Shown piece by piece: positions 36,612 to 64,000 of a stretch of 64,000 bases of DNA; positions within the stretch are counted from its first letter, which is position 1; every line of letters begins with the position of its first letter. The stretch lies in contig KQ965829.1 in assembly GCA_001574975.1 (NCBI GenBank), positions 65,182-129,181 on the forward strand. Direction: 5' to 3'. A model generated the notes under the pieces. It ran no database searches. It was not told where the DNA came from and saw nothing but the letters and a program-made list of their open reading frames with translations. A program made the position numbers and the translations under genes. The DNA is from Gonapodya prolifera JEL478. Lineage: Eukaryota > Monoblepharomycota > Monoblepharidomycetes > Monoblepharidales > Gonapodyaceae.

Positions 36612-38573
36612 ATGGAATCGCTCGACCGCGTGGACTCCACGCTCGGAAAAACACGCCGCGTGCCTCCGCAACTCGCTCCACGTGCCTGCCCGCCATCCCG
36701 CCAAACGCATCCGCACATGCACTCGCCATCTCCATCACCCTTCCCATCGCCCTCCACTCCCGCGACGCCGCTCTCCCCCGTCGACACGCTTCTCCTCACA
36801 GGCATCGAATCATCAAACATCCACATGGTGCACACTGCCCTTTCCGAAGGCGCGGATCCCAACACGCGGAAAGTCGTCGTTTTGCGAGTAGCCGTCGAGG
36901 AGGACGTTGAGAAGAGACGAAGGAAGGAGAAAGTGAAGGCAGAGTCGGCTCTGGCTTTGGCGGTAGTCAGGGGAAAGGTACAGATTGTGAGGACGCTGCT
37001 TGATGCAGGTTGGTATTGATCTCGTCGCTTGCCTTTTCCTTCGTTGCATGCCGTGCTTACGAGATGCGTCACGTCCCTTCCCCGCCATCGGGTTCAATCC
37101 AATCCCGCAAACTCCTCAGGCGCCGACCCACGCCAACCAATCTCATGGCCCCTCCCCGCCTTCCACCTTCACTGGTCGCTTTCTCATTGGTACACCCCAC
37201 GCTTCCACTCCTCGCCTACATTCTCTAACGCTTTGGAGCTCGCACTTGCCACGGCAGTTTGGTGCAACTTGGCTGGACCCCATGTGGTCGTTGATAATCC
37301 ACGGACGGTGTTCGAGGCGCGCGAGTGTGCGCTGGTAGAACCGAGCGTTGAAGTCGTCGCCGAGCTTGTCAGGAGGGGAGTTCCAATGACGCGTGCAGTG
37401 CTGGGACGTGCAAGGGAACTTGGGTATGGCGCACCAGAGGGAACTGCACGGTGGCGGATTTTGGATATGGTCGAGCGAGCAGCAGGGGTTGGAGCTGCGT
37501 TCGACCCAACTGGGCGTCCCCTATCTCCGGGCCACTTGTCCCTCTCCACAACGTCACCCCACTCGCATCACCTATCACCAGACCCGCCCATCCACACCCA
37601 CACCCACCTCGACACACCACGTGGCCGCCAACCCGCGACCGGCATCATGTCCCCGCCACTCTCACCAACAGGAGGCCGGCGTCGATCTTGGCTCGCACCT
37701 TCTAAATGGCTCGGCAACCGGCCCACGTCCCCGCCTCCGCACCCACCGCGGCACCTCGCAACATCACCTCCACCATCTCCAATCCCGAACCCAACCCACG
37801 TTCGGGGCCAATCCCGCCCTCGATCATTCTTCTCCCCATCAACATGGTTCCCGTCACCCCGCTCCCGCACCCCATCCCAGTCTCGATCCCGTTCTCGTGG
37901 TGACCCGTTCTTCAACCGCCGTCCTACAAGCCCACCGCCACCACCACCTCCGCGCACAACCGTCTATGCTAAACCTCGTCGCTCCAGAAGTGCGCCAAGG
38001 GCAATCGACACCACCCGTCTCCCTCTTCCCACGTACACCAACACCAGGATTGCATCACCCGCGCCGAGGCCACTTTCGAGGTTGATTCCAAGCTCGCCAC
38101 TCGGTACGCACGCGCCCGCGCCGGCGTGGACACCCACACGCCCTACCACGCCCACATTCTCAGCGCGGGCACCCGCGTCACCACCGCCCACGCCGCGGGT
38201 GCGAAGCAATGGTGGCGAGCGCCGGGGAGCGGGAGAGGCGGCGGTGGGGATGGTGAGGCCGTTGTCGTTTCCGCGGCCCGAGGATGTCGTGGAAGTCGTG
38301 CCGTCGCCTGTGCTCGCGAAGGACGGTAGTTGCGCCACCCATGCGCGGAACGTGTCGGACCCCTTTCCTGCCCCGACAGTGTCGGCGTGGGCGGGTGTTG
38401 TGACGCCGCGTAGGGGACGGTCTACAGGGTCTTCAGCGCCGTCGGGCTATTCCTCACCAGAGTTAGAGGTGGATTCGTATTTTGATCCACGGGTGGGCGG
38501 GCTGTATGTTGCGAGTCGTGGGGCACCGGGAAGTCCGCCTGGGAAGACGTTCCCCGGGAGAGTTGTTGGGTGA
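36612..38573 (+). CDS. Ankyrin-like protein, family member C
   Basis: Opposite orientation to A and B. Exon 1 from ATG 36612: a Ser/Pro-rich leader, then PVDTLLLTGIESSNIHMVHT with ALSEGADPN, and ALALAVVRGKVQIVRTLLDA. An intron from about 37007 to 37120 rejoins as DAG-ADPRQPISWPLPAFH, then SPTFSNALELALATAVW, VEVVAELVRRGVPMTRAVLG and RWRILDMVERAAG. The C-terminal ~350 residues are disordered and Ser/Pro/Arg-rich, with motif copies RSWLAPSKWL and RSFFSPSTWF, then many SPxP and RSRS stretches. This is the clearest intact member of the family. Function unknown; the architecture suggests a scaffold with short linear motifs. Stop TGA 38571-38573. Confidence 0.68.
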
Positions 38574-39518
38574 GTCAAGGTTATGCGGAAGAACTGTGAA
38601 GTGGCGTGATTGTAGGCGACATCAGTGGGTGTGTGGATTGTGGAACGGGAGAGATGGATGGTTCTTGATTTGTGGAGTCAAGGATGCCGAATGACGAGCT
38701 GACCATTGAATGAATGGATGACACGTCGGCCAAAAATGTTTACATTTTGTCAAATACCTGAGGAACTATGTCAAAAGATTGAAGTTCGACAACAATTCGG
38801 CAGTCGCTGGTGAGACGTCTGATACTCAGTCAGAATAACCAAAAGCCCAAACGAGTCCAGAGATCAATCGGGGTTCCACAAGTCCTCCGATCGCACGGCG
38901 ACCAAAAACACAGTGCATACACCACATCTTGCGCAATCCCACAGCCTTGTTGATACCTCACAGAGCCGGGCCTGCTTCCTGCCTGAGTGAATCCCGCGTC
39001 ACCAAGTCCCTGTGCCGATCACAATTATTTTGTTCACCGCGCGGCGCGTGAGGAAATGCCCTCTGCAAGCTGGACTGGTGATAAAATAGGACGAAGGGTA
39101 CGCGCGCGGCAGGCTCGGTCCCTGTCGTCGAGTCGACATCGCGTTGAGGTGTCAAAAAAGTTCTACCGACAAGTCAACAACAACCACACTCAGTTGCACC
39201 ATCCCCGTTCGGCGATCGGAATTCATTTTAATAAATATTTTTTTCCACCTTCACCTCCAAACCCCACACTCCACACAACACACAACACACACAAGTACAC
39301 TACACGCACCCTTCCATCACCCCCTCTCAAACTTTCATTCTCGGACCACACACCGCGCCCCAGCCTCTCTTCCGAAAAAACCAGGATGCCCGTCGCCAAG
39401 CGGCAGGCGCTTTCGCGCGCAGGGTGGGTCGTCATATCGTGGGGGGAGGGCGGGCGGGCGTGTGTGTGGTGGCGTTGGTGCGTCAACGGGGAAGGCCGGA
39501 GGCGGGGAAGGGACCGGA
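38574..39518. other. 3' flank of selenoprotein H; possible SECIS location
   Basis: No gene supported. The minus strand here is the 3' untranslated side of the selenoprotein H gene, where a eukaryotic SECIS hairpin should lie. Reading by eye I found no hairpin with a confident ATGA/AA/GA core. On the plus strand an ATG at 39386 opens a short frame after an AT-rich, promoter-like stretch (39220-39245) and a CA-rich leader, but no downstream exon fits. Confidence 0.4.
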
Positions 39519-40673
39519 TTAGGCCAAGGCGTCCCCAATGGAAGATACCAAGGTAGAAGGGTCAGGCCATTTGAGCTTGCGCGGGGGGCCGAGGGTCAGG
39601 CCGGACCAGACGGTTGTTTCTGTGCGTGTGGGAAGTGACAGGTGGCAGGTGTGTAGGTGGATGGGGATGTGAGAGGAGGCGGTGGCGGTGGCAGGTGAGT
39701 GGGTGACTTGATGAAGGATGAGTGTTCGCTCCGCGAGACCATTCCGCTTCGCTCCGCGGGGCACTCTCCTCCGGCGGACTCCTCGGTCCTTGATATCGCT
39801 ACCGCCTCGGAGTCCTCCCTCCGCTCGCCCCCGCCCCCCCCCCCCCCCCCCCCCCCCCCCTCCCTACTCCATCAAACCCACCCTTGCCATCCCCAACAAC
39901 CGTGAAGTCAAACGCGCCCTTGCGCGGCTTGTCGGGGTTGACGGAGATGGATATCCCAGGGAAGGACGCTTCGAGTGTCTTTTTTCGATGTTGAGGAAGG
40001 GATGTGGAGGTGGAGGCGAAGGGGTGGAAAAGGAACGGGAGAGAGGATGAGGGCGGAGGGGATAGAGAAGGAGAAAGGAGAAAGCAAGCGGTGAGACGAG
40101 AGCCGGGGCGAAGGGAATAGAGAAGGAGAAGAGAAGGAGAAAGGAGAAAGGAGAAAGGAGAAAGGAGAAAGGAGCCTTACCGGCCGAAGCTTCTTCAACT
40201 GGGACGCGTACTGAGATCAGCTCTTGCTGTTGTGTGCCAACATGCCGAAGGGCGTGAAGAGATCGGATCGTGTCAATTAAATTAAACTGCACAAAGTTGG
40301 GAGTGCTAGAAGCCTTAACGCACCAGATCTCGGCCCTGAGCTCAAAGGCTTTCTCGTTGACCGCGCCCACGCCCCCGCCCTCTCCGTCCGCGTCCTCCTT
40401 CTTGACCTTATCCTTGACCTTATCCTCCTTCTTCACCGCCTTCTTCGCCACGGCCGTCGCAGCCTTCCTGCCCTTCTTTGCTTTCGGCCCACTCGCGCTT
40501 CCCTCTGCCTTATCGTCATCCTTGTGCGCAATAGGATCGGCTCCACCTTCGTCGGCATCCTCGTCTGCACCCCGCTTGGTTCCCCTCCTGGCCGCCACCA
40601 CGTCGTCGCCGTCTTTGCTCTCCTCCTTGATTGCCGCAGACGCCTTCGTCGCCGCTGTGCGTTTGGGCGGCAT
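39519..40673 (-). CDS. SELENOH: Selenoprotein H with in-frame UGA (selenocysteine)
   Basis: A nuclear thioredoxin-fold redox protein (SelH/Rdx family). Exons: 40673-40324, 40226-40181, 39978-39882 and 39619-39519; phases agree and give 198 codons including the stop. The N-terminus is Lys-rich (MPPKRTAATKAS, then KAKKGRKAATAVAKKAVKKE), a nuclear signal. The fold then reads FELRAEI, C117-K-S-U120, SQYASQLKKLRP, TLEASFPGISISVNPDKPRK, GAFDFTVVGDGK, ETTVWSGLTLGPPRKLKWP and DPSTLVSSIGDALA. This matches animal SelH block by block (CxSU, VNPxKPRRGxFE, LWTGxKKGPPRKLKFP). The first intron splits the Cys codon (TG/C), and the fourth codon on is TGA at 40219-40217. An alternative acceptor that skips the TGA would break the frame. 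In-frame UGA plus an intact CxxU motif means selenocysteine insertion. It is divergent from ARMC2. Start at 40673; an in-frame ATG 12 codons upstream is possible. Confidence 0.88.
39834..39860 (+). repeat. Homopolymer of 27 C
   Basis: An uninterrupted C run (G on the transcribed strand) inside the third intron of the selenoprotein H gene. Its exact length is likely to be unreliable in the assembly, but it lies outside the coding exons as joined here. Confidence 0.9.
40135..40174 (+). repeat. GGAGAAA microsatellite
   Basis: Five to six copies of a 7-base unit (ggagaaa) within the second intron of the selenoprotein H gene, just downstream of its donor site at 40180. On the sense strand it forms a pyrimidine-rich tract. 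Confidence 0.8.
40217..40219 (-). other. Selenocysteine (UGA) codon of selenoprotein H
   Basis: TGA on the minus strand, three codons after the redox Cys (codon split by intron 1) in the order Cys-Lys-Ser-TGA-Ser-Gln-Tyr. The reading frame stays open for 78 more codons that continue the SelH homology, so the TGA is read through as selenocysteine rather than ending the protein. Confidence 0.85.
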
Positions 40674-41129
40674 CGTGTGCGGGTGTTGCGGTGTGGGGGT
40701 GGGAGGCATGGGCAGACACCGTGCACCACTTGAGGGAGTGCCAAGATCTTTGTGTTAGGGGCGAAGGACATGACCACGACGGCGGAGAGACGAGGCCCAG
40801 TTCACACCCCGACGGCGGGCGATGGCGATGGCGTGGTGCGGGAGAGGGAGAGGGAGAGGAAGATGCTGTTTGTGGGTGCGACGGTGGTGAAGACGAGGGA
40901 ACGGGCGCGGCGGGGGAAGACGGCGGACGCGGGCGCGGGGGCCGAGTGGAGCGGGAGTGGGAGGAGGAAGCGCGAGGGTGACGAGCGAACCGTAGAAGAA
41001 AGAAGGCGCAACGAAGTGGCGCTGGACGGTCTACCTCTGCGCGACGACGCACTGGATTCGAATGAAGCCCGCCGCGGACCGGAGCGGGGACGAGACGCAA
41101 CACACTCCCACTCCACACGTCACCGCGAA

Positions 41130-44100
41130 ATGAAACCACACCGCAGGGGTGCAGACGCCCTTGTCCTTGTCCCGCCCGGGGGTCTCGCGTGGGGTGGGGC
41201 GCCGCCACGCCCGCACCCACCACCACCGTCGACATCTCAAAGACCCCAAACACCCGCACAAATCATCGCTGAGGCCAAGGCGTCGCTCAGGAACCCTACG
41301 AGACCCTTCACCCCACTTGTGAGCGGCGGGCATGCCTCTAGTAGCGGTCTCCTGCGTGTTGCAGTCGGAGGGCCCTTGGTCCCCGCTCGACTGCAGGGGG
41401 CGCAAAGAACCTTGGTGCGCCCAGGGAGAGCGCAAGTGCCGCCGCCGAGGTTGGAGCCGATTGACGTGTCGCACGTGTCGCGGCCCGTGACGCCCGCCGG
41501 ACGAGTACCTCGGGATGGCAAGTCGTCGGGCGTATGTGATGAAGTAAAGGTGCAAATTGTGCATGTCGGGTACGACGAGCGAGATGGAATGAAACGTGTC
41601 GAGGGAACTGGGGATGATGGTGTTGTCGATAGCAGGGTGAGCGGGTCAAGAGTTGATTCACACCTCTCTCTCAACATGCCGACGACGCGATTTTAGGCTG
41701 CTTCCACCACACCCACAATCACGGCCAACCTCGCGTCCATCATCCACTCCCCGTCTCCTTTTGCCTCCTCACCTTCCCAATCCCCCACCACCTCCCTAAC
41801 CACCCTCGCCCACCACCTACTCTCCCTCCCACCACATGCCTTCACTGTCGCTCTCTCAAACCTCGCTGACGAGTGTACACGCGCTTTGGAATTGGGAACT
41901 CGCCCGGAATTTGTAGATGATGTGACGAGGGTCGTGTGGTGCGCGTTGAATGTTCGTGTTGGACTCCCGAGCTTACTGGCGTGCGGGGAATTAACCTTTG
42001 TCTCCGGGATGGAACAGGCTTCCGCACCAACCGTCCCTTACGAGCTGCTCAACCTCGGGCATCATCTTGCGGGAATGGGGATGGAGACGGGGGAGGGAGA
42101 TACGACCGCGGGGAGTGGGATTGGGAGTGGGAGTGGGAGTGTGATGGCGATGGCAGAGTGTGTTCGTGAGTGGCATGTGCAGGGGGCGGCGGTTTGGTGT
42201 GGAGAGGTGCGGTGCGTTTCTGATTCCAGGGGTCTGACCGCCACGCACCACGTCCGCGTGTGTACAGCGGCACTGTGTTCGATTATCCTTACTTCTCCTG
42301 CTCCTGCACCCGCTTCCCCTTCGCCCACCTCCCCCCCCACCTCCTCCTTCCGCACCTCCACCACCACCACCGACACACCCACCCCCGCCCCCCTGATAAA
42401 CCTCGACACCATCGCATCCGCAACACTCGCCCTCCTCACCCAACGCCACACACCCGCGTGCACTGCGGTCGCGAGGTCGGGATACGTACCTTCTTTACTC
42501 AGCTTCCTGTGCTCCCAGAATAAGCCGCCAGCGCCCACGCCCGCGCAAACAGGATCTCAAGCTAGTGGTACGCATGCAGGAGCGCCGCCGCCGCCGCCGG
42601 TAGTGGTGAACGTTCTTGGTGCACTCCGAGACGTATCCGCCCACAGATCTACCCGCGCGTCGGTGACACGGGATCCGGAGCTGTTGAACGGGGCGATGAG
42701 GTGGTGTTTTGCGATCGGATCTCCACCCGCCGTTGCTGCTTCCGGCACCACCCACACCCACGCCCACGCCCACCTCGACTGCCTCAGCTCCACCACCGCG
42801 GGCACGGGCACAACAGACACGGACACGATCCACGCCGCATCCCGCGTCGTTTCAAAACTCTCCGTGTTTCGGAGCGGTCGCGCTGCACTCCTATGCGACC
42901 TCCTTCCCGTTTCCCCTTCTTCTTCCCCTTCGCCTCCCCCAAGCCCGCCCGCGCCACCCCTGGTCGCCCTCCTCGCACGCCACATCTGCACATCCACGAC
43001 CAGGCTCGGCACGCTCTCCCGGATCGCTTTCGCCCTGTCTAATCTGATTCTGCACCCGTCTGACGCGGCGGAGTTCGACAGGGGGTCGGAGGGACGAAGC
43101 CGGTTGGATTCGGGGCGGTCCAGTGGGAGCGACGGTAGCGACGGCACGGTGGGTGTGCAGGAGCAGGAGCAGACCAGAACGGCCGCGGGAGATGTCAGAG
43201 ATGCGCTTGTAAAAGTTCTTTTAGAGGCTCTTGAAGGGATCGTGGCGGCGCTTGGACGCGCGAATGAGATTCGGACGGTTTCCGCGGCAGGGGGTACTGA
43301 CGATTGTGGTGATGAGGACGGTGGGGATGGTGGGGATGTGGTACGCGTAGCTGGGGAGGCTACAAGGATGGTACGTTGATATGGTTCCGTTGTTTGAGAC
43401 GTCGCCAGCGGTACTGATCTCCGTTCTCCTATGATTCAAATAACCCCCTCGCCCACATCAAGATCCTACGCCTTCTCGCAAACCTCGCCACTGACCGCCG
43501 TGCTGGGCTTGTTATGGCGCGGGGGGATCTGGCGGATACTGTTGCTGCGATGTTTGGTGAGGCTTGTTGTTTGTTTCGTGTGGATTTGCGGACACCAAGT
43601 ACCCCCTCCAAAACACAAATCCCCCACTCTCGCGCAAAGAACAAACCAACTCAGCCCAAGACGAAGAACTTAAACTCGTCGCCGCATACGCGCTCGCCAA
43701 TATTTCGTTCTACGCCGCGACAGTCGTTTCATCTGGTCGTGGCGCCAGGGCGGTATGGGGAGATGCAGATGGTGGAATGAAAAAGATTCCAATTGCCGAT
43801 GGTACGTGGTGCTTTGTTCTCGCATCTGATCGCACGTCCCTTCACGCCCACTTTCGCGATGCGATCAGCGATCCTCCCAACACTGTTCCACCCAAACCCC
43901 GAACTCGTGCGCGAGTCACTGAGAATCCTGGCAAACCTCGCCCTTTTCGACTCGCTCTACCCCCCACCTTCCTCGATGGCTTCACCTACCACGACACCAG
44001 CTACTGTCCCCACAATACCAACCTGGCTCCACACATCGCACTGCATCTCCGCCGTCCTCATACACCTGCACCACCCTTCACCACCCGTCCGCGTCGCCGC

Positions 44101-53366: not shown

Positions 53367-54572
53367 CTAAGGGGAACTCTGTCTCGAATGGCAGTAAGGA
53401 CAAGTGTGCCCCCCAGCACAGACCGAGTCCTCTTTGTCCCGGCGTCCACCTGCCTCCGGCTCGATTGAGAGAGGTGTGTTACATACTTCACACCTCGCAT
53501 TCTCGTAACAGTCTGGACACACATCTTCGCACTTGCACGGGGTGCTGTGGTGCCTGCACAACGCGAAACCGCCCCCGCAGTCAATGCACGTAGCCTGGCA
53601 GTTGGGACAGGATTCGGTGTCGCAATGAGATTGAGGAGACAACTGTGGCACCGTGCTACCCTGCCACACGCAGTACTTCCACCCGAAACTCATGCGACAC
53701 ATGTCACACAGTTTTACGAGCACATCACAGTTGTTGCCACATCGAGATCCGCGCCTCGCGCGTCGGTGCCGACCAAAGTATGAGGTGCACTGCAAACACA
53801 CGCCCGGCTCGCTGCAATATATGCAGCGTTTGTCTCGACTCCATGAGTGTGCCGGCTGATCGTGGCAGGATATGCACTGACGAGGGTAAGCCACGAGGGC
53901 CAAGTGAGATGGTGCAGTTTGAACAAGATCTCGAAACTGTCGCAAAGGTGACAGGATCAACGCCTGTCGAGAGTTTTCACCCCAAGCACCGTGTCCAAGA
54001 ACATCCCCACAGTGCCGAGGTCCCTTTGCAAGTCGCTTCGTCCTCCCTAGGCTGTCCGAAAGGTCCAACCGCTTCAAGCTTCTGGACGTCCATTGCAAAA
54101 AACGTCCATTCTGGGACGCTAATTCGACAAAGGCTCGACCGGACTCCAGGCACCCAATAAATGACGCTTCCCGGAGCGAGGTGAGCGTGTCCAGAATGCG
54201 GACTATAATGGTCACGTCGATGGGCGTGTGCGTGTGTTCACGATCAAGTGTGACAGTAACCACGCTCGATGCAAGCGCTTGAGCGTTGCCGCTGTACATC
54301 CACCGCTGTAGCATGACCATGGACCGTTTTATCACCAATTCCAACGCCCCCGAAGAGCTGTAGAGGTACGCGTGTGGCTCCTTCTCCAGCCGAATGTCAT
54401 ATCGAGACCGTGACGGGATCGTGGCGACAATCCGGCCCGTAGCCCGGCAGGCAAGGCATACGTTTGCCAGTGAGTCTGTCGCCAGGTGGGAGAAGATGGT
54501 GTGCAGAACTTCTGTGGGCAGGGTGAGGAGGTGTCTGCGACGGTGAGCGGGAGAGTCAATGAGGGAGGACAT
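53367..54572 (-). CDS. F-box protein with a cysteine-rich C-terminal domain
   Basis: Single exon, 401 residues from ATG 54572. Residues ~14-50 form an F-box: LLTLPTEVLHTIFSHL with SLANVCLACRATGRIV. The middle has leucine-rich-like segments (VVTVTLDREHTHTPIDVTII, SLREASFIGCLESG, SLKRLDLSDSLG). The C-terminal ~150 residues hold about 25 Cys in paired C-x2-C and C-x3-C spacing (CISCHDQ, CIYCSEPGVCLQC, CGNNCDVLVKLCDMC, CPNCQATCIDCGGGFALC, CKCEDVCPDCYENARCEVC, CPYCH), so several zinc-binding knuckles are likely. An SCF adaptor with a zinc-ribbon substrate or RNA-binding domain is a fair inference. I do not know a named family with this exact layout. The frame is open upstream of 54572 but low complexity there. 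Confidence 0.6.
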   Translation of the reverse strand: MSSLIDSPAHRRRHLLTLPTEVLHTIFSHLATDSLANVCLACRATGRIVATIPSRSRYDIRLEKEPHAYLYSSSGALELVIKRSMVMLQRWMYSGNAQALASSVVTVTLDREHTHTPIDVTIIVRILDTLTSLREASFIGCLESGRAFVELASQNGRFLQWTSRSLKRLDLSDSLGRTKRLAKGPRHCGDVLGHGAWGENSRQALILSPLRQFRDLVQTAPSHLALVAYPRQCISCHDQPAHSWSRDKRCIYCSEPGVCLQCTSYFGRHRRARRGSRCGNNCDVLVKLCDMCRMSFGWKYCVWQGSTVPQLSPQSHCDTESCPNCQATCIDCGGGFALCRHHSTPCKCEDVCPDCYENARCEVCNTPLSIEPEAGGRRDKEDSVCAGGHTCPYCHSRQSSP

Positions 54573-55695
54573 TAGTGGCGAGAGGTAGGGAATGGATTGA
54601 TGGAATAATGGTGAACGAAGGGGGGATGATGGGATGATCCTTGGATATGGAAAATGCACCTTATGCGATTCGACTTTGGTCCCTGTCCTCTGTGGTCGGA
54701 CGAGAAGTGGGAACATTGCAAGTATTCCGTTAGCTTTCGTGCTGAGGTTCTATCCGTAGTCATATCGTGCTGGTGCGCGTGGTGAAAGCACGCCGAAATA
54801 TGCAGTTCTTCTCGCGTGACATTCAAAGAACACTTTCATGTTCCGTAAGACTCAGTCTGTGCGCCCATATCCCATTCCTCATGAGGCAAACGTTCGTGCA
54901 AGTCACGGGTCGCCGAATCCTCATACTGGACCGCCTTCGGGCCATGCGCACAGATGCGTGAGCGACTGACGTTTCGTCTCGTGTGCGCAGTAGTAAATAA
55001 GCAAAGCCGATCATCGTCGCCTGAGGGAAACTAACCTCGCGTAAATTGTGCCTGTGTGCAGTGCCAAAGGCCTGAGCAAATTTCGCGACCATAAACGTCG
55101 AAAGTGCGCCCACAAATACCATAACATTTATGAAGTAGGAATGTTTTAGCAATCGTGGTAACGATAATCCGGCTTTAAATAATCGTTGGAGGTTGGGTTC
55201 AGAACTTCAACATTTTGGCAAGCTACATATTGTCATCACGTTTGGGAGCTCAGCTCCACCGTGACGGAAGATATTACGGGGAGCTGGCGGAAACTCTGCT
55301 CAATTGCCCCGCATATGCCAAAAAGCACATCATTTGAGTTCGTTCAAAAGTGGCGGAGCTCTCACCAATGATTGGTGCCCGTCGAAGGTACGAACACCCG
55401 TTATCTTCCCTTGCCTGTAATTTCGTAATTCATAGGTATGTGATGGAGCATATGGACAAAAGGAGGCGGATGATCGTACTTCCCCGGGATGCTTCGGTTT
55501 GTGAGACACCCCGGCACGTGCATGGGAGCGCAAGTTATGACGAGTGGAAGATGCTCTCTCGCTCCAGATATAGTTCCACGACGTCACGTTAACCTTTCGA
55601 CCCTTAGGACTTGATTATCCGGGACAACTTTTATTCTTGCCGACTGCACCCTACATTCACCGCCACGACCATCTCGACACGCTCCACCGCCTCCG
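54573..55695. other. Intergenic region between two divergent genes
   Basis: About 1.1 kb between the F-box/zinc gene (minus) and the Ca2+-ATPase (plus). A minus-strand stretch near 55040-55122 could encode a single hydrophobic helix (MVFVGALSTFMVAKFAQAFG) with a donor site after it, but no partner exon was found. Otherwise no supported feature. Confidence 0.35.
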
Positions 55696-61758: not shown

Positions 61759-64000
61759 TCAGTGGAAAAAGTAGGGGCTGCCAATAACAGTACGAACGTC
61801 AAAGTCACCTCGTTTCGGTAGTTCGGGAAATAAGCGCTTGATGTCCACCCAAACTAGAACCGCTCTCGCTCCGACCTTGTAGCTATTAAAATTTCGCTTT
61901 GACATCCCACGTCCCTTCTTGCCATACCGAGTCTTCGCTTCAATAATTGCGTCCAAATCGCCATCTTCAGCGGCATCCAGCATCCTAGAGGCGACGGCCA
62001 CTTCACGCTCCGCTTCTAATTTGAGCACCTTCTCCCACATCACCTTTTGATGTTTTAGCAGGCAAAGTCACGCGGACGGGGAGCTTGTTGTTTCCAAACC
62101 TGTCCAACAATTCGTCTCGCAGTTTTTTCATGATGCCCTTGCCGTCCGGGCCGGTACTGTGTAACCTCACGAACTCCTCCCTCAGAACTATTCCAAGTTC
62201 GTCTACATCGGCCGCATGGGTCCAAAACGAGTCATGTACAGCCGCAAAAGTCAGTCCAAGTGCCTTCATGTGCAACGCCGTGAGCATCATGTGCGTCGCG
62301 TCCAGGCTGTGGATGAAATTTGGGGGGAATGCGCTCGACTGCTTTTGATGGTTTGTTGAACCCTGTAATGTGGGATCTGCAATAACGAGTCTTTGGTAAC
62401 GTGACGTAATCGAGCGCATGGGGAATTTACGGTACGGTTGCACGACAGGGAGGCCAAGCGGGGTTGTCCAAACCAACATCGTGTTTCGCTGAATAGCCGG
62501 TGGCAGTTCAAAACCTCGTTTCTTCACGCCGGACTTGGTCTTCTTCGTCTTGGCCTCTTTCGTGCTGGATTTCATCACTGCTGAATCCGTAACGGAAGAG
62601 GAGACATCATCCTGTCGAGTGATTTCGTGATCCAACAATCCGACATGTAAATTGTCACGGGACGTCTCTAGTCCAACAAGCTTTCCTTCAAAATCATCAT
62701 TTTTAGCATCGTTTTCGTCATCTTCGGTCATCCTCAAGTCTTCCAGTTCTGTCGTCTCCACCCCGTTCCCCTCAACCTTGCCACCCTTCACGATGCCCAT
62801 CTCCTCCAAGACATCTGTGATGATCAATCCCCTTGGATCGATGTGTCTCGGGTCAGCACTGGAACACACAATGCGAGCCATGTCGTTTAACCATTGTTGA
62901 ATGGCCCTTGCGCCGCTGAACATCTCCGCCACCGCACGGTTTGTCAAGATAGCGAGATAACTCGCACACTGGAAAATTTGTCTATCGTCCATGACGTGCT
63001 CTCCAGCAGTTCTTGATTCGACTAAACGGGCTGAAATCTGCTCTCGAGCCCCAATGAATGTCACCCCGTAGCTTTGTGTCATCACAGTCTGCTTCACAAG
63101 TGCCCGCGTCACTTTTCCCTGAGCCATCCGAGCGATTGCGTTCCCCGCGGTAGCGTCCTCGTCCACGATTCTTCCAACGATCTTGGCAACACCGGTATAA
63201 ACATCACCTGGTTTCTCCCGAGGCACCAAGTTCACCTCAAAAGCACCCTCTGAATCACCTCCCAAGGCAGCGTAATGCTGAAGTCCATTGCATGAGCCAT
63301 CCATCTGTACTGGCAAACCGCTTTCATACCTTTCAGGACCTTCAGGGTGTTCCATCGCCATTGCGACTTCATGACAAACCGCCAAGCACTGGTACGGCGA
63401 GTCCGCCTTTTTCCACCATCCTTTCCCACCCAATGGATTTCTGGCGGAGTCTAGCACGTCGTTCATCCTTTCCTCTGACCACTTGACACGATCCGCGAAC
63501 GACGCCTTATCGAACCCGTATGTGTTTGCTAGGTGCACTTTGAGCCAATACCAGCCACGATTTCCGAGTGGCTTACGCAGATCGAACCGCAACAAACTCC
63601 GACTCAAATCGTTTCCGATATGGTTCAGATTCGGCGGGACGGGATACGCACGCCCACGGAAGTCGATGTGGTGGGGGAACCAGATCGGCCTCCCCGCCAT
63701 TGCTGCCGCCAATACAACTTTGAGTCCAGCGTCGCATCGCTTTGAGTACCGCTCACGCTCATCCTTGAGCCATTTGGCCCTCGCGGCTGCAATGATCGCA
63801 AAATCTCTAATCTCCTCCCGCTTAACTTCGCCCTTGGCCCGTCGTTCCTTCCATGCTTTCATACCGTTGGAAAGCGCAGGTGGGGGGATGCGTCGCTCCA
63901 TGGCCGCCGGTGGCATATCCCCCAAGGAGACTCCGGAATTCCACAGCTCAATCACGGTAGGGAGTACGACGTCGTTGACGCGCCACGGGATCGAACCCAG
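61759..64000 (-). CDS. RPO41: Mitochondrial RNA polymerase (5' part beyond the right edge)
   Basis: Single-subunit, T7-like polymerase that transcribes mitochondrial DNA. The window starts inside the gene (LGSIPWRVNDVVLPTVIELW) and runs to the C-terminus. Motifs: FPHHIDFRGRAYP, the palm Asp in VQMDGSCNGLQHYAALGG (about 63290), the O-helix region RALVKQTVMTQSYGVTFIGA, PNFIHSLDATHMM and the second catalytic Asp in VHDSFWTHA (about 62230). The last exon (61853-61759) joins after an intron (62043-61854) that restores phase: KTSK-VWVDIKRLFPELPKRGDF and ends IGSPYFFH, the classic terminal block. Reading through that intron would instead break the frame. An acidic/Lys-rich insertion of about 90-110 residues (encoded about 62520-62790) precedes LVWTTPLGLPVVQPYRK. 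Catalytic residues are intact. Partial only because of the window edge. Confidence 0.95.

Follow-up and report, generated by a model that had tools for sequence, protein, structure and literature searches.

A SelH-type gene with an in-frame UGA, very probably read as selenocysteine, and its diverged duplicate in the fungus Gonapodya prolifera

We analyzed 64,000 nucleotides of DNA from Gonapodya prolifera JEL478, a stretch referred to here as "the window," and describe a gene on its minus strand (40673-39519) whose product is very probably a fungal selenoprotein from the SelW/SelT/SelH family, most likely SelH, with the UGA at codon 120 decoded as selenocysteine (Sec). The evidence taken directly from the sequence consists of the structure of the gene, the place of the UGA, purifying selection past the UGA, genes for the Sec machinery, and conservation between two copies of the gene in the 3' untranslated region (3'UTR), where we describe a candidate Sec insertion sequence (SECIS). 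The genome searched comprised 207 contigs (47.56 Mb), and the window belongs to contig C99.

The gene is made up of four exons. Exon 1 (40324-40673) holds the ATG start and a Lys/Glu/Ala-rich N-terminal part and ends within the codon for Cys117; exon 2 (40181-40226) supplies the rest of that codon and the in-frame TGA (40217-40219); and exons 3 (39882-39978) and 4 (39519-39619, with TAA at its end) complete the frame, all on the minus strand. The three introns are all of the GT...AG type, and the joined exons form a single 594-nucleotide frame from ATG to TAA, whose sole internal stop is the TGA at 40219-40217, codon 120 of 197, followed by 77 sense codons. Intron 1 splits the Cys117 codon between TG and C, and the TGA occupies the U position of the motif C117-K-S-U120. 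The initial annotation had spliced four in-phase exons at 40673-39519, and our gene model matches it base for base; a codon check likewise agrees with its claim that the TGA is the only in-frame stop and falls at the U of C-K-S-U, with the Cys codon split by intron 1.

With the TGA read as Sec, the window protein matches TIGR02174 (SelT/SelW/SelH) at 41.4 bits and a second copy on contig C76 does so at 40.1 bits, which exceeds the curated cut-off of 34.2 bits and upholds the SelH-type family membership first proposed from the letters. Matches to Pfam Rdx are barely above the cut-off of 22.6 bits (23.0 for the window copy and 23.5 for the C76 copy), and no PDB sequence matched the window protein at E<=1. 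The window protein has a basic N-terminus and the blocks PRKG-F and GPPRKLK-P, which we take to be features of SelH as opposed to SelW and SelT; judged by these features rather than by a SelH-only profile, this thioredoxin-like protein most likely belongs to the SelH subfamily.

A genome search with the window SelH protein gave six exon matches, split evenly between the window and contig C76. The C76 gene has the same four-exon layout, with 168 of 193 aligned residues identical to those of the window copy (and 45 of the 46 bases of exon 2), and it retains both C-K-S-U and the TGA, the Cys codon changing synonymously from TGC to TGT. The introns of the two copies have diverged. Because this independent copy combines diverged introns with the same exons, motif, and TGA, the TGA is neither a sequencing error nor a chance occurrence. 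Between the copies, the 77 codons 3' of the TGA show 0.027 nonsynonymous substitutions per site (dN) and 0.34 synonymous substitutions per site (dS), a dN/dS of ∼0.08 by NG86; for the 115 aligned codons 5' of the TGA, the corresponding values are a dN of 0.10 and a dS of 0.55. The ratio beyond the TGA argues that this part of SelH is translated and under purifying selection. Reinitiation is unlikely because the protein has no Met after the TGA.

These comparisons bear on the proposal that the TGA is a true stop, with the SelH copies decaying or existing as pseudogenes that lack the Cys/Sec pair, and with the C-terminal part not made. Gene finders would end SelH at the TGA, and the survey in PMC7988114 reports no U in annotated fungal proteomes; genes cut at the TGA would explain such proteomes. 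Yet the low dN/dS past the TGA between diverged copies, the frames and splice sites intact in both, and the presence of Sec machinery in the genome leave this proposal very little probability. We consider it just as improbable that a functional protein arises by alternative splicing or intron retention that avoids the TGA. Exon 1 of each copy is overlapped by a long open frame (296 and 293 amino acids), and retention of intron 1 leaves a frame open through exon 2, but in a frame other than that of SelH and Rdx, which is lost. When GT or GC donors in exon 1 were combined with acceptors in exon 2 only, all in-frame forms that skip the TGA (116 in the window and 108 in C76) lost Cys117, and exon-2 skipping, checked separately, shifts the SelH frame into an immediate stop at the joint.

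The initial annotation had called for a search of the genome for tRNA-Sec (the Sec tRNA), SBP2, eEFSec, SPS2, and SecS, and all five are present; among them are tRNA-Sec and eEFSec, whose absence, it had argued, would refute the selenoprotein reading. Two tRNA-Sec genes score 74 and 72.9 bits against a cut-off of 47 and have the anticodon tca according to ARAGORN; the model used also matched 14 of 14 prokaryote controls, 5 of them above the cut-off. SecS gave six exon matches at two loci (C75 and C19), all above the cut-off, with a profile that matched 3 of the 14 controls. For eEFSec, two exon matches above the cut-off to the eEFSec-specific domain lie on contig C5, where none of the 14 controls had a match, and the start of the GTPase was identified by eye. 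The N-terminal exon of SPS2 reads ELKG-TGA-G, followed by an intron and then GCKVPQ, and its TGA aligns to the T of ELKGTGCKVPQ in selenide,water dikinase 1, a known Sec site. The SBP2 domain, on C26, has SECIS binding protein 2 as its best PDB match (9.8e-12), with L7Ae proteins next (4.4e-4). The initial annotation had also named a fungal host, and 63 genome matches to Zn_clus, a domain nearly confined to fungi that was found in 0 of the 14 prokaryote controls, fit this assignment.

The same C26 stretch (L050:4613-6235) continues without a stop from the SBP2-like L7Ae domain into ankyrin repeats (Ank_2; 2.1e-27), an apparent fusion predicted from the genomic frame. No SBP2-ankyrin protein was recognized in the open-licence literature, where, of 14 papers pairing both words, the 10 examined look unrelated by title.

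That the UGA is read as an ordinary amino acid (Trp or Cys) by general readthrough or a reassigned code is scarcely probable: the lack of a canonical SECIS by Rfam would suit such decoding, but the genome has Sec machinery, TGA stands at the Sec site of both SelH and SPS2, which are unrelated families, and TGA occurs in 0 of 9 GPx matches and nowhere in a 650-codon RNA polymerase open reading frame (ORF).

The initial annotation had proposed 38700-39518, downstream of the gene, as the place to look for a SECIS, and a SECIS-like element does lie there, at 39440-39337 on the minus strand. Two short 3'UTR blocks are near identical between the SelH copies, separated by a stretch that varies in length and letters. 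The blocks pair into an upper stem (39430-39415 with 39360-39344) of 14 pairs, one bulge, and two mismatches, with ATGA at 39435 and the 3' quartet C/U-GAG at 39343-39340; an unpaired AAA (39413-39411) at the top of this stem, 17 nucleotides beyond the quartet, is invariant in both copies. From sequence and predicted folds, the element has an upper stem with the AUGA/GA quartet at its base, a lower stem, and an internal loop; the stretch that includes the lower stem (39311-39454, minus strand), with a C-rich 5' arm and a G-rich 3' arm, is a predicted fold only. The eukaryotic SECIS features listed in PMC11227280 fit the element. We scored it with a home-made SECIS scan, whose rules were set after the conserved blocks had been seen and whose shuffle and background counts, which required AA at the AAA position, are not blind. 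The scores were 31 for the window copy and 33 for the C76 copy; 31 was reached by none of 154 other 800-nucleotide stretches of the window (maximum, 28), and of the 150 shuffles made for each copy, one reached the observed score of the window copy and none reached that of the C76 copy. The folding z score depends on the bounds chosen (-0.29 and -2.18 in the window and -4.09 in C76). A 2019 study reportedly states that most fungal selenoproteins lack a consensus SECIS.

A covariance model built from the two SelH copies alone was searched against 8,001 bases of the SPS2 locus on both strands, where the best of its eight matches was a stretch within the SPS2 3'UTR (8.3 bits; E=0.28; next, E=1). 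This stretch has CGAUAUGA in common with the SelH element, as well as UGAU opposite, an outer stem, and a ministem (z score, -2.10). Taking the scan, fold, covariance-model, and Rfam results together, we regard the SelH element as probably a SECIS, one with an unusual shape, and the SPS2 stretch as a suggestive relative.

Several results weigh against Sec decoding as proposed here. Rfam SECIS_1 (RF00031) had no match at E<=10 in window positions 38300-40800, the SPS2 locus, or the C76 locus, and of its two matches genome-wide neither exceeded the cut-off of 35. The apical part between the stem arms is unusually long (54 and 68 nucleotides in the two SelH copies), and at one set of bounds the fold test gave the z score of -0.29. 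The SPS2 covariance match is weak, its E value rising from 0.28 over 8 kb to 0.96 over 27 kb; the SPS2 element by itself is not significant, being equalled in 11 of 150 shuffles and 10 of 154 background stretches; and the two stem pairs that change on both sides in the joint SelH/SPS2 alignment are equalled by 59 of 500 shuffles. As for the machinery, the three selD matches on C1 are each under the whole-protein cut-off and the selD profile matches 14 of 14 controls, so SPS2 rests on the alignment of its N-terminal exon. PSTK was not found in the genome (0 matches to TIGR03575 at E<=0.001, a search that intron-split exons can escape). Finally, we rejected a special codon conservation around the UGA between the SelH copies, as a run of 14 degenerate codons that are unchanged there is not unusual (permutation p=0.55).

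The best SECIS_1 match in the genome (C45:80026-80091, minus strand; 28 bits; E=0.045) was set aside, with no selenoprotein recognized upstream in three frames read by eye. In the search for PSTK, PF08433 matched two exons of a gene that, from its sequence, we take to be KTI12-like and had one further match under the cut-off.

Beyond the probable identity of the SelH element as a SECIS, we think it possible, if doubtful, that the Sec apparatus of this lineage is a remodelled eukaryotic one, in which SelH and SPS2 have in common a lineage-specific SECIS, with a CGAUAUGA core, a long upper stem, AAA displaced to ∼17 nucleotides from the quartet, and a very large apical part, that is read by an SBP2 with ankyrin repeats fused C-terminally to its RNA-binding domain. 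For the decoding of the SelH UGA as Sec in vivo, the proposed steps are as follows. tRNA-Sec (anticodon UCA) would be charged with Ser, which SecS would convert on the tRNA by using selenophosphate from SPS2, itself a predicted Sec protein here; we infer a kinase step as well. SBP2 would bind the 3'UTR element, with its AUGA/GA quartet, long upper stem, and unpaired AAA, and eEFSec would deliver Sec-tRNA to the UGA. The resulting pair, Cys117-x-x-Sec120, may act as the redox center of the protein.

A possible stem-loop lies 11-72 nucleotides 3' of the UGA in the spliced mRNA, where the end of exon 2 is joined to the start of exon 3 (39946-40208, minus strand). In the two SelH copies, its stability exceeds that of 99.5% and 99% of synonymous shuffles, and a hairpin over the UGA is stabler than 98.9% and 91.3% of such shuffles. 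The bounds were picked after fold inspection, the signal is weak, and the wider stretch from -30 to +90 around the UGA is not unusual (fractions of 0.103 and 0.243).

Duplication extends well past SelH. Large parts of a 29-kb stretch of C76 align to the window (67-93% identity), interrupted by inversions and gaps; in the main blocks, the flanks of the tRNA-Sec pair are 86-87% identical and those of the SecS pair are 79% identical. The matching contig pairs are C99/C76 (SelH), C24/C49 (tRNA-Sec), and C75/C19 (SecS). Such matching regions around three Sec-related genes make a genome-scale duplication likely, through whole-genome duplication or hybrid origin, or else point to very diverged haplotypes. 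Zn_clus scores are nearly equal on the pairs C21/C27, C41/C77, and C24/C147. Upstream of SelH, ∼130 bp (window positions 41241-41371) are almost identical in C99 and C76; this block falls inside a plus-strand ORF (40752-41693) whose DUF2722 match is under the cut-off. Intron 3 of SelH contains a run of 27 G residues on the minus strand (39834-39860), and the C76 tract is similarly G rich, with interruptions.

Other loci were considered as further selenoproteins and rejected. A SelW-like Rdx match (C5:213635-214058) is of the C-x-x-C form (CPKC) and is a Cys-form relative of SelH within the same genome; five GPx loci are Cys forms wherever the active-site stretch is readable. Elsewhere on the minus strand of the window are an ORF for a mitochondrial (T7-like) RNA polymerase (62006-63955; Pfam RNA_pol, 1.7e-151), with PDB 6ymv, presumably from yeast, as its nearest structure, and an F-box protein ORF (53370-54716).

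Nine early-branching fungi with selenoproteins were published in 2019, as cited in PMC10386755, PMC12611240, and PMC7988114. Seven of the nine are Harpellales (according to PMC10386755), Gonapodya prolifera is named among Sec fungi (in PMC7988114), and the Sec fungi are described as falling in three groups, Chytridiomycota, Zoopagomycota, and Mucoromycota (PMC11378755). Zancudomyces culisetae is reported to have the Sec machinery and SelenoH, with expression seen by RNA sequencing, and SelenoH to be common to Harpellales (PMC12611240). The very high novelty first claimed for this gene therefore does not stand, fungal selenoproteins having been in print since 2019 and SelenoH having been described in Harpellales, and with Gonapodya prolifera among the nine, the SelH gene itself was possibly already listed in 2019. 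In the open-licence literature searched, as far as its available text extends, we found no description of a duplicated fungal SelH or of a SECIS form for fungal SelH; what is added here is the diverged SelH duplicate and the candidate divergent SECIS. Few fungi use Sec, and PMC7988114 disputes that any do, on the ground that annotated fungal proteins contain no U. Two diverged SelH copies under purifying selection past a common UGA provide independent evolutionary evidence that the codon is decoded. The SECIS candidate conserved between them is a concrete target for testing how a UGA is designated for Sec in fungi.

As in animal SelH and the SelT/SelW/SelH family at large, C-x-x-U in the window gene stands where the Rdx domain begins; the window protein differs from the animal SelH family in its N-terminal extension of ∼115 Lys/Glu/Ala-rich residues. 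The Sec codon redefinition element, present in an animal selenoprotein N gene, is a stem-loop just past the UGA, and the SelH copies likewise show a stable predicted stem-loop ∼14 nucleotides past the UGA, although, unlike that element, it draws on weak, post hoc statistics. The ministem of the SPS2 candidate recalls type II eukaryotic SECIS. In contrast to Rfam SECIS_1, which does not match it, the SelH element places its AAA 17 nucleotides beyond the quartet on a 14-pair stem with a bulge and two mismatches, and its apical part of 54 or 68 nucleotides differs from the apical loop of 8-20 nucleotides in the loose SECIS model that PMC11227280 gives for Asgard archaea. Like the Sec fungi of Mariotti et al. 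2019, as cited, this genome combines Sec machinery with UGA-containing selenoproteins; beyond what is cited for those fungi, SelH, tRNA-Sec, and SecS are here each present twice, in regions that match, and the SelH copies have a conserved candidate SECIS in common.
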